Positions 1,962-54,192 of a stretch of DNA of 64,000 bases are shown here, one piece after another. The stretch is from Planctomycetota bacterium (lineage in GTDB: Bacteria; Planctomycetota; Phycisphaerae; Phycisphaerales; SM1A02). The stretch covers positions 1 through 64,000 of the forward strand of contig JADFIR010000002.1 of the NCBI GenBank assembly GCA_022566535.1. The letters run 5' to 3'. The notes under the pieces were generated by a model. It was not told the origin of the DNA. It made no database searches and was given only the letters and a program-made list of their open reading frames with translations. Positions within the stretch are counted from its first letter, which is position 1; each line of letters starts with the position of its first letter. The position numbers were made by a program, and so were the translations under genes.

Positions 1962-3598
1962 CGAGCGCCGGCCAAGCGTGGGCACTTGCATTCGTGGTGA
2001 TGAGCGCCCTCGTGACGAGTACGGCGGTTGCCGCGATCACCGCGCCCGGCGCGACACTGAAAGGGGCAGCGCTACCGACACCGCCGAGCGCCGAAACATC
2101 ACCGTCTCAGACGGCGGTCAATCTCCCACCGATCCCCGATTTTCCGTTCGAATCGATGGAGCCGGCCGTGCGCAGGCAGTTCGTCGAAGCCGCCCGTCGC
2201 GTCGCCGCATCGCCAGGTGACGCGGAGGCGAACGGAAGACTCGGCATGCTCTACCATGCCTACGAGTTTCACGTCCTTGCCGAGCCGTGCTATCTCCGGG
2301 CGGTCGTCTTGGCTCCTGATGATCTGCGTTGGCGCGCCTATCTGGCCAGGGTGCTGCTGGAGCGCGGCGAATGGGAGCGTTGTGCCGGCGAGCTCGATCT
2401 GGTCCTCGCCCAGCGCCCCAATGATGTTGCTTCGCTGCTCTATCGCGCCGATGCAGACCGCATGCGAAATCGCTTGAATGAAGCGCTGGCCGGATACCGG
2501 CGAGTCATTGAGATCTCACCGAAGACCGCACGAGCATATTGCGGAGCCGGCCAAGTCTTGCTTCGACGCGGAGAACTCACGATCGCGGTGGGATACTTGG
2601 AGGAGGCAATCCGTCTCACTGCGGAGTATGGCACGGCACGGTATGTGCTGGGCCAGGCCCTGCGCAAGCTCGGACGCACCGAGGCGGCAATGCAACAGCT
2701 CGAACTGGCCGAGCACCAACGCAACGAAGAGCCACGAGTCCCTGATCCGCTGAGGCAACGCCTTGATGCACTGCGAACGGGCGCGATTGACGCCTTACAT
2801 CGCGGCATTGACCTGCTTCAACAAGGGCAAGTAGAGCCTGCGATCGCCTTGCTCGAAGAAGCGGTGCGGATCAATCCCGACCTGCCGGAAGCCCACGGCC
2901 AGCTTGGCACTGCGCTGCTGAAACGGGGCCAGTTGGAACACGCCGAGGAAAGCCTGCGGCGCGCGTTGAACCTCGACCCGAACTTCGTCGATGCGCTCTA
3001 CAACCTTGGCTTGATTGCCCATCGGCGAAACGACTACTCAGAAGCGGCGAGGCGCTTTGCACTGGTGGTTTCCATTCGCCCGCAACACTTTGATGCGCAT
3101 CTCGGGCTCGGCGCAGACTTGTCGCGCCTCGGTCGGGCGGATGAGGCGATCGAGCATCTCCGCGCCGCCGCAAGGCTTCGACCGAATGATCCGCGTCCCT
3201 ACAAACGGCTCGGTAGCGCACTTGCGGCACTGGGGCGCTACGAGGAGGCCATCAGCCGTCTACGTGACGGCGTGCAGCGCCTGCCCAATGACGCGTCGAT
3301 CGCTGACCGGCTGGCCTGGATGCTGGCGACATGCCCGCAAGAGCAATGGCGAGATGCAAACGAGGCACTTCGCGTTGCCGAGGCGGTATGCCGCAGAACC
3401 AACAATGCGGTGCCGCAGGCCTTGGACACCCTCGCCGCTGCCCTGGCCAATCTTGGCCGTTTTGAAGAGGCGATCGCCGCCGCCGAGCAAGCGCTTCAAA
3501 TGGCAAGAGCGAACGACAACCGCGACCTCGTAAGTGAGATCGAGGCTCGTCTGGACCACTACCGCGCCGGCCGGCCCTACCGCCAGCCATCGCCATAG
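1958..3598 (+). CDS. TPR repeat protein, translationally coupled to the upstream ASPIC/UnbV protein
   Basis: Multiple TPR motifs (AIALLEEAVRINPDLPEAHGQLGTALLKRGQLEHAEESLRRALNLDPN); GTGA 4-bp overlap. Confidence 0.88.
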   Translation: MTSAGQAWALAFVVMSALVTSTAVAAITAPGATLKGAALPTPPSAETSPSQTAVNLPPIPDFPFESMEPAVRRQFVEAARRVAASPGDAEANGRLGMLYHAYEFHVLAEPCYLRAVVLAPDDLRWRAYLARVLLERGEWERCAGELDLVLAQRPNDVASLLYRADADRMRNRLNEALAGYRRVIEISPKTARAYCGAGQVLLRRGELTIAVGYLEEAIRLTAEYGTARYVLGQALRKLGRTEAAMQQLELAEHQRNEEPRVPDPLRQRLDALRTGAIDALHRGIDLLQQGQVEPAIALLEEAVRINPDLPEAHGQLGTALLKRGQLEHAEESLRRALNLDPNFVDALYNLGLIAHRRNDYSEAARRFALVVSIRPQHFDAHLGLGADLSRLGRADEAIEHLRAAARLRPNDPRPYKRLGSALAALGRYEEAISRLRDGVQRLPNDASIADRLAWMLATCPQEQWRDANEALRVAEAVCRRTNNAVPQALDTLAAALANLGRFEEAIAAAEQALQMARANDNRDLVSEIEARLDHYRAGRPYRQPSP

Positions 3599-3942
3599 CA
3601 GCCCGTGGCAGACGTCATTTTGGGTAGGTTTCAGGGCCCCTGATGGGGTCAAAACGCGGTATGTACGAGTTCGAAACCGCCATCACCACGGGCTGTTAGG
3701 GGTCCGGGCGGCGGCCTGTGTCCGACACATAAAAGTTGCCGGATCTGCTGGCACCTACCGCAGTTCTGCGGTACATTACTGATAAGATGGGCTTGGCTGC
3801 AGGCTGGGCCTGTCGGTTTGTCACCTGGGTGGGGCCTGAACGCCCTTGCCCGTCGCGCGGTGTCCGTGGTTGCGTGACCGGGTCCCTGGCAGTCAGGCCA
3901 TCATTTCTGATCAAGAGCCGTATCTTGGGCATGGAGGTTGAA

Positions 3943-5751
3943 ATGAACCGAGCAAGTTTGATCATGGCGGTCGTGTTCTCCACAGGCGGTGCGGCGGCCT
4001 TGGCCGGCCAGTTGCCGGGCACCTTGAACTACCAGAACGTAACCGGCGCCCGCATCAACCAGACGGTGCCGGAAGCCGGGACCAACGAGAAGGAGGTCGA
4101 GTTCGGCGATTTCGACAACGACGGCGACCTTGACGTGGTTATCGCCGTGGCCCACGCCGACTTCGGCCAGCGTAAGAACAAGATGTACCGCAACGATGAC
4201 GGCGTGTTCACCGAGATCAGCGCCACCGTGCCGTTGTTCACCACCGGCATGGGTGACGTCGCCCGAAACGCGTTCTTGCGCGACTACGACCTCGACGGTT
4301 GGCTGGACCTCATCATCGTCTGCGACAACAACACCGGCGGCGATCCCGGCCGGACGAAATATTGGCGCAACGTTCATGCCGGCGGGGTCCACACCGGCTG
4401 GGTGGAAGAAGGCAATGCCCGCCTCGGCCCCAGCACCGGCGGCGCGGCCTGTGGCGCGGTGTCAATCAACCCGGATATGGATGGCGACTTCGACCTCTAT
4501 GTCGGCAACTATCCCGGCCCGTCACAGGACACGATGTATTTCAACCGAAACGACCTCCCCGGCTACTTTACGGACATGACGGGCGGCATGGTGCCATTCG
4601 ACGTCCATTACACCGTTGACGTGTCGTCCGCGGACCTCAACGGCGATGGGAAGCTCGATCTGCTCATCAGCAACGGGCTTGACCCCAGCTTCATCTACTA
4701 CAACAACAACCAAAACGGTGGCACCAGTGATGGCGACTACAACTACCCCAACAGTGTTCAGCTCCTTGCTTATGCGTCGTTCGAGAACGCGATGGAGGCC
4801 GGCGACTTTGACGGTGACGGCGACCAGGACATCTATTGGACCAACTTGGTCGGAGGTGCCGACCGCATTCTCCGTAACAACGGCAACGATGGCGCCAACA
4901 AGGCCACCTTTACGGACCTCAATATTCTGCCGCCGTCAACGGTCAGCGTCGTTTCGCGCAAGGCCACCGTGGCCGACCTGAACAATGATGGGCGCGTTGA
5001 CGTCTTTGTGATGAAGGAGCAAGGCGGGAGCAGTCGGCCGACCATCCTTCGCAATACGTCCGTCAACAACATCATCTCCTTCGTCGATTGGACACCCGCG
5101 CCCGCTTTCCCCAGCGGCTCCGGTCATAAGGGTTGGCACGCTGCGGCCTTCGACACCAACGGCGACGGCGATCTGGACATCTTCCTAGGCGGCTGGACCA
5201 ACGATCACTTGTTTGAGAACGTCCCCGCCAACGAAGTTGATGAGGATGACCTGGCCGGGGGAGCCCTGCCCGGGGTGTACAACAGTGATCCGGTCGCAGT
5301 GCTCGGACATGCCTCGGAGGCGGACGTCGATCTCTACACCGCCAGCGGCATTGGGTCCAACGCGCTGATCTCCCTGGTGCTCAACGGGCCGGATGACTAC
5401 CTGCTGGGGCTGCTCAACAGCGACGGAAAAGTACTGGCAAGCTCCAATCGGGGTGGGTTGGGCATTGAGGAGGCGCTTCAACAGAGCGTCACCGCCGGCC
5501 TCTACAGGGTCCAAGTCACCGTGATCCAAGGCGGTTCTTCGATCTACGACCTTAACAACGATGGAACGGTCGGCATCCTCGACCTGCTTGCATTGCTTGC
5601 CGCCTGGGGCCCCGTCCCGACACCCGACCCGCCCGATTTCGACGGCGACGGCATTGTCGGGATCTTGGATCTGCTCCTGTTGCTTGCCCATTGGGGTGAC
5701 GCCGGCGACCCCAACGATTACATCCTCGAAGTCCTCTCACGCAGCGGTTGA
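3943..5751 (+). CDS. FG-GAP/VCBS repeat protein with dockerin-like C-terminal tail
   Basis: FGDFDNDGDLDVV..., C-terminal YDLNNDGTVGILDLLALLAAWG...DFDGDGIVGILDLLLLLAHWG; signal peptide MNRASLIMAVVFSTGGAAALAGQ; start 3943 preferred over 3736. Confidence 0.85.
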   Translation: MNRASLIMAVVFSTGGAAALAGQLPGTLNYQNVTGARINQTVPEAGTNEKEVEFGDFDNDGDLDVVIAVAHADFGQRKNKMYRNDDGVFTEISATVPLFTTGMGDVARNAFLRDYDLDGWLDLIIVCDNNTGGDPGRTKYWRNVHAGGVHTGWVEEGNARLGPSTGGAACGAVSINPDMDGDFDLYVGNYPGPSQDTMYFNRNDLPGYFTDMTGGMVPFDVHYTVDVSSADLNGDGKLDLLISNGLDPSFIYYNNNQNGGTSDGDYNYPNSVQLLAYASFENAMEAGDFDGDGDQDIYWTNLVGGADRILRNNGNDGANKATFTDLNILPPSTVSVVSRKATVADLNNDGRVDVFVMKEQGGSSRPTILRNTSVNNIISFVDWTPAPAFPSGSGHKGWHAAAFDTNGDGDLDIFLGGWTNDHLFENVPANEVDEDDLAGGALPGVYNSDPVAVLGHASEADVDLYTASGIGSNALISLVLNGPDDYLLGLLNSDGKVLASSNRGGLGIEEALQQSVTAGLYRVQVTVIQGGSSIYDLNNDGTVGILDLLALLAAWGPVPTPDPPDFDGDGIVGILDLLLLLAHWGDAGDPNDYILEVLSRSG

Positions 5752-51610: not shown

Positions 51611-53119
51611 ATGCGTTTCGAACTCGGCCAACACATGCGGATGAGCCAGCAGATGAAGCTGGCGCCGAGAATGATCCAGTCGATGGAGGTGCTGCAGATG
51701 CCGATGTTGGCTCTGCAGGAGCGCGTGGACCAGGAGCTGGAGTCCAACATTGCCCTTGAGATTGTCGAGCCGAATGAAGAGTCCGATGAGCAGGACGATC
51801 TTCAGGACAAGCCGCTGGAGGAAAAAGAGCTGGACGTGGGCGACAGCACACCGGATGCGTCGGACGACTGGCAACGGCTCAGCGAGCACGAAGCCGCGAA
51901 TCCGGAAGTATTTGCCGGGCAGGAGTCAACACAAAGCTATTCGCGCTACCGAATGGCGGGAGAGCGCGATCGGAAGATGGACGCCCTGGCCAACATCGCC
52001 GCGCGCGGCCAGAGCCTCAATGAGCAGCTTCTTCAGCAGTGGTCGTTCGCCGAGATCGATCCCGCCACCATCAATGCCGGCAAACTGCTGATCTCCTACA
52101 TCGACGACGACGGCCTGCTCGGGGCGGACCTCGAGACGATCCTCGAGCAGAATCGAAACGTTCCCGGCCTGGATCTGTCAATCGACCGGCTTGAGCAGGC
52201 GTTGCAAGAGATCCAGCAGCGCTTGGATCCCGCCGGGGTCGGCGCCCGTAGCCGTCGCGAGTGCATCCTTCTTCAGATCGATCGATTCCAGAGCGAGCCC
52301 GACCATGACCCGCGCTGGTCCGACGTGCGGCGGCTCATCGAGCAGAGCTACGACGACCTCCTGCAAAATCGACTGCCGAAGATCGCCCAGGAGACCGGCC
52401 TGTCGCTTCAGCAGATTCACGATGCGATGGGGCTGATGCGAAAGCTGAGCATCAGCCCCGGCCGCGATCTGGTTGACGTAGAGGTTCCACCGATCATCCC
52501 GGATGTGATCGTCGAATACGACGAGGAGGCCGACGTGTACGTCGCGTCGCTGCGCGACGGAGTGCTACCGACCCTGGGCATCTCAAAGGAATACGAGAAG
52601 ATGGCCAAGGACCGCTCGCTCGACAAGGCCACGCGGGAGTTCATCGGCAACAACGTGCGCAATGCCCGCTGGCTGATCGACTCCATCGGGCAGCGCAAGA
52701 ACACCATGCTGCGGGTGGTCAATGTCGTGTTGGCGAGCCAGCGCGAGTATTTCGACGACGGCCCACAGTCCCTCAAGCCCCTGCCCATGATCAAGGTCGC
52801 CGATCAGCTAGGCATCCACGTGGGGACGGTCAGTCGCGCCGTGGCCGACAAGTGGCTACAAACGCCGCGAGGTCTTGTCACCCTGCGTCGATTTTTCTCC
52901 GGCGGCACCGAGACTGATTCCGGACAGAACATCAGTTGGGAAGCGATCAAGGCCAAGCTCAAAGAGATCGTCGACGCTGAGGACAAATCCAATCCGCTTT
53001 CGGACGCGGCTCTGGCGAAATCGCTGAAGGAGCAAGGCATCGACATCGCCCGCCGAACCATCGTCAAATACCGCCAGCAGCTCGACATCCCGCCCGCCCG
53101 TCGCCGAAAGGTGTATTGA
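51611..53119 (+). CDS. rpoN: RNA polymerase sigma-54 factor
   Basis: N-terminal Q-rich LGQHMRMSQQMKLAPRMIQSMEVLQMPMLALQERVDQELESN; ARRTIVKYRQQLDIP RpoN box. Confidence 0.96.
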   Translation: MRFELGQHMRMSQQMKLAPRMIQSMEVLQMPMLALQERVDQELESNIALEIVEPNEESDEQDDLQDKPLEEKELDVGDSTPDASDDWQRLSEHEAANPEVFAGQESTQSYSRYRMAGERDRKMDALANIAARGQSLNEQLLQQWSFAEIDPATINAGKLLISYIDDDGLLGADLETILEQNRNVPGLDLSIDRLEQALQEIQQRLDPAGVGARSRRECILLQIDRFQSEPDHDPRWSDVRRLIEQSYDDLLQNRLPKIAQETGLSLQQIHDAMGLMRKLSISPGRDLVDVEVPPIIPDVIVEYDEEADVYVASLRDGVLPTLGISKEYEKMAKDRSLDKATREFIGNNVRNARWLIDSIGQRKNTMLRVVNVVLASQREYFDDGPQSLKPLPMIKVADQLGIHVGTVSRAVADKWLQTPRGLVTLRRFFSGGTETDSGQNISWEAIKAKLKEIVDAEDKSNPLSDAALAKSLKEQGIDIARRTIVKYRQQLDIPPARRRKVY

Positions 53120-53323
53120 CGAGCTGTTAGCTTTCAGCGATCAGCCTCCTGCCGATAGCCCCGGACTTAGCCCGCGGGGGTTGTGGCGGCTGGCGCGCTG
53201 CTCATCAAACGAGCCCCCGGCCGGAGGCCGGGGCTAAAGGCGGGCCGGTGCGCTCAACCAACTCCCATAGCCCCGGACTTCGCCCGGGGATTCTTCTAAC
53301 ACAAGGGCCATGGAGCCGGCCGG
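53077..53323 (+). repeat. Dispersed repeat copy C: rpoN 3' end plus hairpin repeat, with about 100-bp insertion
   Basis: gacgagctgttagctttcagcgatcagcctcctgccgatagccccggactt... and second atagccccggacttcgcccggggattcttctaacacaagggccatggagcc. Confidence 0.8.
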
Positions 53324-53342
53324 CCCCCTTCAACGGGCGGCA

Positions 53343-53407
53343 CATAAGTTACTCTTTCCGTTCAGCATTGCATTGGCCCCACTAGACTGAACTGTTCAAT
53401 CAACTGT
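53343..53407 (+). promoter_or_regulatory. 65-bp conserved block upstream of the GIY-YIG gene, shared with 23530-23594
   Basis: cataagttactctttccgttcagcattgcattggccccactagactgaactgttcaatcaactgt. Confidence 0.6.
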
Positions 53408-53436
53408 TTGGCCGACACCAGACGCATCGGATTCTG

Positions 53437-54192
53437 ATGAAGCAAGCACAGAGTGACTCCTTTCCGGCAGGCGTGGCCAGCGAGCTCAAGACTTACGTCT
53501 ACAGGCTCATCGACCCGCGAAATGGTGAGACCTTCTATGTTGGGAAGGGTAAGGGCAATCGCGTATTTTCTCACATCCGCGCTGAGCAGCACTTGGAGGA
53601 AGGCGATGATCTGGACAACAAGATCAAGCGGATCCACGAGATCCGCGTTGCGGGATTCGAGGTCGCGCATGTCATTCACCGCCACGGGATGGACAAGACG
53701 ACTGCCTTAGAGGTGGAGGCCGCACTTATTGATGCGTATCCCGGGCTCGCCAACCTCGCTGACGGAACGGGCGGCAGCGACTACGGGGTCATGCACGCCG
53801 AGGAGATCATTCGGCGCTACTCTGCCGAGCCAGCAGTGTTCCGACACAAGGCCTTGCTGATCAGCGTCAACAGAAGCGCAACCGAGCGATCCTTATACGA
53901 TGCAACTCGTTACGCGTGGAAGATCAGCAAGTCGCGGGCGAAGGAAGCTGAGGTCATCCTCGCCACCATGCAGGGCCTGATCGTTGGTGCCTTTGTCGCA
54001 GACGATTGGCTGGAGGCGACGGCGGCAAACTTCCCAGGTCGCGCGGAGGGGGACGGCGTGCCCGGCCGTCTTGGTTTCGTTGGGAAGGAGGCACCCGACG
54101 ACATCAAGAGCCTCTATGTTGGGAAGCGTGTGCCGGACGAATACCGGAAACCTGGCGCTGCGAATCCGATCAAGTACACCTGGGGCAAGTAG
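53437..54192 (+). CDS. GIY-YIG nuclease domain protein (LEM-3-like)
   Basis: KTYVYRLIDPRNGETFYVGKGKGNRVFSHIRAE...TTALEVEAALIDAYPGLANLADGTGGSDYG. Confidence 0.88.
   Translation: MKQAQSDSFPAGVASELKTYVYRLIDPRNGETFYVGKGKGNRVFSHIRAEQHLEEGDDLDNKIKRIHEIRVAGFEVAHVIHRHGMDKTTALEVEAALIDAYPGLANLADGTGGSDYGVMHAEEIIRRYSAEPAVFRHKALLISVNRSATERSLYDATRYAWKISKSRAKEAEVILATMQGLIVGAFVADDWLEATAANFPGRAEGDGVPGRLGFVGKEAPDDIKSLYVGKRVPDEYRKPGAANPIKYTWGK

Follow-up and report, generated by a model that had tools for sequence, protein, structure and literature searches.

Dispersed attI-like sites, probably integron platforms lacking an integrase, precede accessory genes in a planctomycete genome

In class 1 integrons the attI site is 65 bp long. 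Outside class 1, attI sites are poorly described; IntegronFinder expects one attI near the integrase, and CALIN are defined by attC (PMC9024848). Because one attI per integron is assumed and the site is so poorly described, surveys based on attC are blind to a layout in which attI itself is repeated across a chromosome. Off-target insertion, loss of intI and rearrangement have been discussed as routes to CALIN (PMC8618304). Looking through open-access literature for multiple, second, duplicated or dispersed attI sites brought up no paper whose title and abstract describe such a layout, which is no proof that none exists.

Here we examined a window of 64,000 nt from contig C24 of a planctomycete assembly (G000; 3.36 Mb in 86 contigs), in which two accessory genes are preceded by similar DNA. 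The two stretches, 53343-53407 on the + strand and 23594-23530 on the − strand, align without gaps and are identical at 51 of 65 positions, as the first-pass annotation had reported; the best 65-mer among 20 shuffles of one upstream region reached 34 matches (mean 29.9). Similarity extends further 5', with 53316-53407 matching 23621-23530 over 92 nt at 77%. The spacings given in that annotation are also correct, with 29 nt between the block end and the ATG of a GIY-YIG gene (53437) and 39 nt before the ATG of a PD-(D/E)XK-like gene (23490). The core had been taken for an imperfect dyad, but a direct repeat, AACTGTT-caatc-AACTGTT, describes it better. The sequence CTGAACTGTTnnnTCAACTGT has two matches in the window at up to three mismatches, where none is expected by chance.

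Searching the assembly at the DNA level recovered further copies on C17 (91%), C29, C36 and, in part, C1. Scanning the genome and its relatives with a block profile had been proposed in the first-pass annotation, and a profile made from 22 copies gives at least seven sites in the genome itself (seven at E<=0.01, C10 included), with further copies in relatives and different genes downstream. An eighth site, on C83, was spotted upstream of an attC after the profile listing. Each copy in this genome heads a different accessory gene; those behind the other copies encode a zinc-ribbon membrane protein, a DCC1-like oxidoreductase, and a glyoxalase-like together with an AHSA1-like protein. The earlier proposal of a shared 5' element before unrelated accessory genes thus holds beyond the window, the copies preceding a different gene each time, and neither a housekeeping gene nor a known IS was seen at the copies examined. 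Block loci also include defence-like genes, namely a TIR + Mrr nuclease (L051, 2135-3070, −), an AAA/OLD-like ATPase (L058, 2706-4325, +) and an orphan Dam methyltransferase (L072, 56-679, −). Within the order the distribution is patchy across four families, with matches at E<=0.01, weak ones included, in 22 of 400 genomes. The strongest come from the same genus, from several genera of the same family and, at 92%, from G092 in another family; the named records carrying the block include Planctomycetota MAGs such as B28T1B8 and B39T1B5.

With 27 copies aligned by the final GTT of their core, conservation shows a sharp edge. The 45 nt left of the GTT carry on average 0.89 bits of information per site, the GTT itself 1.46, the next four (RRRY) positions 0.58 and the 33 after those 0.06, and this edge coincides with the integron crossover G/TTRRRY. 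Extended to include this R-box, the first attI-like block spans 53343-53412 (+; profile match 53349-53412, E 1e-18), with R-box GTTTGGC at 53406-53412 and a predicted crossover between 53406 and 53407. The second spans 23525-23594 (−; profile E 2.6e-16), with R-box GTCAGCT at 23531-23525 and a predicted crossover between 23531 and 23530. Both R-boxes deviate from GTTRRRY by one or two bases.

In related genomes, the 3' end of the block, AATCAACTGTTAGGC, turns up again at the position of attI, upstream of an intact integron integrase gene. Read away from the gene, these ends are CCCAATCAACTGTTAGACC (G111), AGAATCAACTGTTCGTC (G062) and AGATTCAACTGTTAGGC (G042), with further examples in G079 (AGATTCACCTGTTAGGC) and G194 (ATAATCAACTGTTATGT) and shorter relatives such as TATAATCACTGTTAGGC in G118 and G099. 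A matrix built from blocks only picks out five attI ends of intact intI genes, 227-290 nt upstream, each scoring above all 200 shuffles of its stretch. This likeness is limited to the 3' 15-20 nt, and sequence farther upstream differs between lineages. The recurrence of the 3' end at intact integrons therefore identifies the last 15-20 nt of the block as the attI of the order; from the alignments, the upstream part is lineage-specific. A clear match occurs at only some intact intI genes, the rest having a different attI or none detectable. On another contig, G111 carries a second copy of its intI-adjacent attI, 90% identical over 149 bp and heading an attC array; tblastn detected no IntI similarity in the surrounding 7 kb. 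No other site shows an attI on its own as clearly as this second copy.

Taken together, we read the block as an integron attI-type site without an integrase, present as at least seven dispersed platforms that each carry one or two cassettes, and give this reading a probability of roughly 0.87. The cassette-like system suggested in the first-pass annotation is supported. As its main explanation, that annotation had preferred a shared operator/promoter, and several features of the block do resemble one. Most copies have a -10-like box, TATACT, shortly before the crossover; in the window it reads TAGACT at 53383-53388 (+; from the sequence and the alignment) and TATACT at 23549-23554 (−; from the sequence). 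This box and the AACTGTT direct repeat are conserved, a start codon is close by and several downstream genes are defence-like, as would be expected if a transcription factor on the CTGAACTGTT repeat co-regulated unrelated defence genes with no recombination. We consider such a regulon highly improbable, because a regulatory site does not stop at GTTRRRY with conservation dropping to zero past it, the same 3' end recurs at the attI of intact integrons, and attC follow some of the genes. In addition, a consensus scan for a full sigma-70 promoter (-35 and -10 at 16-18 nt spacing) passes no site at either window block, and the copies in G138 keep the core with no -10-like box. A promoter function of the block is possible on the basis of the hexamer.

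The same edge bears on whether the block is an IS or MITE remnant or a REP-like repeat that happened to insert in front of genes. Its multiple copies, the REP-like repeats nearby and the hairpin-containing variants on C1, C10 and C83 would fit such an origin. We nevertheless regard it as extremely unlikely, since the block always points toward an ORF start and lies close to it, has a sharp edge at GTTRRRY on one side and, in relatives, is found at the attI next to intI; no terminal inverted repeats were noticed. The hairpin-containing variant has an extra inverted repeat of ~40 nt (CGGAATTC...GCTCAACGGAATTC) between the position of the -10-like box and the CAATCAACTGTT core, and TATACT is absent from it. 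Besides the three G000 contigs, it was found at C48 (first copy) and C2 of G001, C120 of G068 and C211 of G089. Rfam gave no match at the block in any block-bearing locus scanned.

Integron integrases were searched for with TIGR02249 at its curated cut-off in 301 genomes of the order. An intact intI was detected in 20 of them, and in no genome with strong block copies. G000 has no intI above the cut-off, only generic XerC/D-like recombinases, and incompleteness of the MAG could hide one. By tblastn, no remnant of intI lies beside the blocks, the one hit being a generic tyrosine recombinase near the C29 copy (L068, ~3363-3788; 439 aa, 1.5 kb upstream of the block). This recombinase is probably unlinked to the block, since G001 and G003 have matches on different contigs that may represent relatives. 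With no intI adjacent or in the genome, the sites are labelled attI-like, or orphan, rather than as a complete integron. Two integrase remnants were encountered in relatives. One, a fragment with a stop codon (L097, 491-934, contig C215 of G059; 225 bits), is near a canonical short attC and an attI-like end, CATAATCATTGTTAGGC, on the 3' side of the gene. The second (L098, ~4573-4758, contig C60 of the block-bearing genome G092) shares 68% identity with the IntI of G194 across 62 residues, and the matching part contains a TGA.

Two sites, mnmG/tRNA and asnS, are common to related genomes, and at both the left flank and the block are kept while the gene after G/TT differs. At mnmG/tRNA, G001 and G000 are identical at 42 of 50 positions left of the crossover and at 16 of 50 right of the R-box. 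BLAST alignments of orthologous sites break off at the crossover or a few bases away and restart in the right flank, so that the same slot holds different genes in related species. For a candidate empty site in G002, the contig begins only just beyond the slot. The conserved stretch 5' of some copies reaches 150-190 bp, which exceeds the 65 bp of class 1 attI and counts against the attI reading. These sites are relevant to the main open rival, in which the block travels inside mobile cassettes, either delta-attI-type or ORF-less promoter cassettes, rather than marking a fixed chromosomal platform. Cassettes of the delta-attI type have been described in class 1/2 integrons, where they are mobile (PMC12901181), and their like would explain the tandem same-strand arrays of several genomes, in which successive blocks have one gene between them (G001 C48; G059 C197, C112 and C128; G089 C192). 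Some tandem genes are indeed parted by the block itself and not by an attC (G001 C48, G059, G089). Against this, the block and its upstream flank stay put at mnmG/tRNA and asnS while the genes change, known delta-attI replaces attC downstream of a gene, and many blocks head single genes beside conserved chromosomal genes. We therefore think it unlikely, though less so than the other alternatives, that the block is itself cassette-borne.

If the block is a chromosomal attI-type platform, the genes behind it would be expected to carry attC. Intact arrays of the order have canonical attC of ~105-126 bp, for which our scanner finds no match in reversed sequence. This simple strict-pairing scanner is too strict for the degenerate sites of the genus, and a motif test and a covariance model were therefore used. 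The left attC box GCCTAAC lies 3' of stop codons at block loci of several genomes, for instance immediately after the stop at G001 C23 and G059 C112. RYCTAAC occurs within 60 nt of the stop in 6 of 31 block genes and in 0 of 68 long control ORFs (Fisher p=7e-4). A covariance model built from intact integrons detects four attC in G000, including one after the first gene behind the C36 block and within 1 kb of it, where a second GCCTAAC half-site is also present, and one at C83 behind the attI-like variant. It also places an attC within 1 kb behind the block on C23 of G001, and within 1 kb downstream on four of the six block contigs of G138 (0.013 expected). We had considered the G138 core as an unrelated hairpin element, which the attC one gene downstream speaks against. 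The block as the attC of a preceding cassette was likewise rejected; most copies have no R'' (RYYYAAC) partner on the left, and they do not resemble the canonical attC of the order. A point against the attI reading is that no attC can be recognised behind many of the downstream genes, so some cassettes must be decayed or have lost it.

One of the attC detected by the model follows the gene for a 401-aa protein on C49 of G000 (L202, 1519-2721, −), with no attI-like block in the surrounding sequence; this gene is possibly an off-target (attG) cassette. Such insertion is documented (Loot et al. 2024, as cited in PMC12444791), and the block loci too could be imagined as cassettes that landed at generic GTT/GWT genomic sites, their likeness to one another incidental. 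There is very little to recommend this for the blocks, since attG sites have a minimal consensus only, while the block is conserved over 60-150 bp across several genera and families.

In the window, the GIY-YIG gene (53437-54192, +), a putative cassette gene, encodes a protein with a full-length match to PD-T4-3 (PADLOC, E 4e-114) and with similarity to solved structures of the family (PDB 9U75, E 5e-88). By these matches, it belongs to the PD-T4-3/CMoRE phage-defence family, single proteins that cut 5hmC-modified DNA (PMC12923530), in a type of 5hmC-dependent type IV restriction. Many phyla have relatives of it, most of them 53-82% identical, and in Thiocapsa imhoffii DSM 21303 and a Nitrospira MAG an attC-like hairpin was seen by eye directly 3' of the relative. 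Homology between G000 and G015 spans 53431-54192 alone, that is, the gene without its flanks. No attC was found after the window GIY-YIG gene. For the PD-(D/E)XK-like protein (485 aa; 22033-23490, −), the product of a second putative cassette gene, Pfam, NCBIfam, PADLOC and PDB gave no relative. An attC-like left half, AGCTAACAACCAGATGCAGACGGACCGGCCTTCGGCCGTCC, was read by eye where its gene ends, at 22053-22093 (−). The right half of this putative attC is degenerate, and the site lies below the attC scan threshold and has no match to the attC model. Neither scan nor covariance model finds a clear attC at the window loci, and neither locus has the cluster of at least two attC without intI by which CALIN are recognised. 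Elsewhere in the window, several large genes have in common dockerin-like ends, DxDGxVxIxDLLxLLxxWG (1-111, 5548-5699, 59859-59994).

Both window blocks follow a repeat of the rpoN 3' end and its intergenic DNA, and the first-pass annotation had proposed a common layout of rpoN tail, hairpin repeat, block and gene. The repeat is real and present at both window copies, but the layout is not general. The 77-bp repeat at 53071-53147 (+), the apparent source of duplication at 23835-23906 (−) and 26596-26646 (−), has three copies in the genome, all on C24 within 30 kb, of which the one at 26596-26646 has no block; none was seen at block copies on other contigs. The spacer downstream of rpoN in G003 resembles the spacer upstream of the 23.5-kb block. 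A candidate rpoN paralogue at 26.7-27.3 kb proved not homologous to rpoN. From these repeats, the second window block is apparently a local duplication of the rpoN-downstream segment.

These observations suggest how the platforms might work. The block would be an attI-type recombination site whose neighbouring integrase was lost or never present. An integron integrase would cut G/TTRRRY at the block's 3' end and insert circular gene cassettes, so a captured cassette would land 20-60 nt downstream, where it could be read from the TATACT box if the block drives transcription, as it may. An integrase that has since disappeared, or one provided in trans, may have filled the sites. New copies may come from segmental duplication; for the 23.5-kb copy, the rpoN-tail repeat common to source and copy supports this. 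A bolder version, which we put forward tentatively and as less probable than the attI-type reading itself, is a distributed integron, with many attI platforms on one chromosome that stay fixed for longer than genera last. Its platforms would be refilled with different cassettes, phage-defence genes included, by an integrase acting in trans from, for example, a plasmid, a phage or a donor strain. Each cassette would then have its own first position and promoter, with no queue in one array.

If attI sites can be scattered and free of an integrase, one bacterium could have several cassettes in first position simultaneously, and the preceding sequence could reveal a single chromosomal gene to be an integron cassette. 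The analysis also yields a planctomycete attI consensus and connects integron cassettes with CMoRE, a phage-defence nuclease that has been characterised. Compared with the attI of class 1 (attI1) and chromosomal integrons, the block shares the crossover G/TTRRRY, adjacent direct repeats, an internal -10-like box and putative cassette genes directly downstream; it differs in its at least seven copies per genome, each with one or two cassettes, and in having no adjacent or genomic intI. Like CALIN (IntegronFinder 2.0, PMC9024848), the loci contain putative cassettes with no neighbouring integrase and with degraded attC. However, CALIN are defined by attC, at least two by default, whereas here a conserved attI-like head often precedes one gene, so attC-based tools would miss most of these loci. 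Delta-attI cassettes likewise carry attI sequence away from intI within arrays and are functional in assays, but are mostly 14-18-nt fragments downstream of an ORF in mobile integrons (PMC12901181), in contrast to the 60-150 bp upstream of genes at fixed sites here; the tandem block-gene arrays of G001 C48 and G059 fit that description and the single-gene sites do not. Dispersal of cassettes over the chromosome is shared with attG, which, as Loot et al. 2024 is cited in PMC12444791, has no extended conserved sequence. Finally, the window GIY-YIG protein matches the PD-T4-3/CMoRE nuclease (PMC12923530; PDB 9U75) over its full length and differs in being a planctomycete protein of putative activity whose gene lies directly behind an attI-like block.
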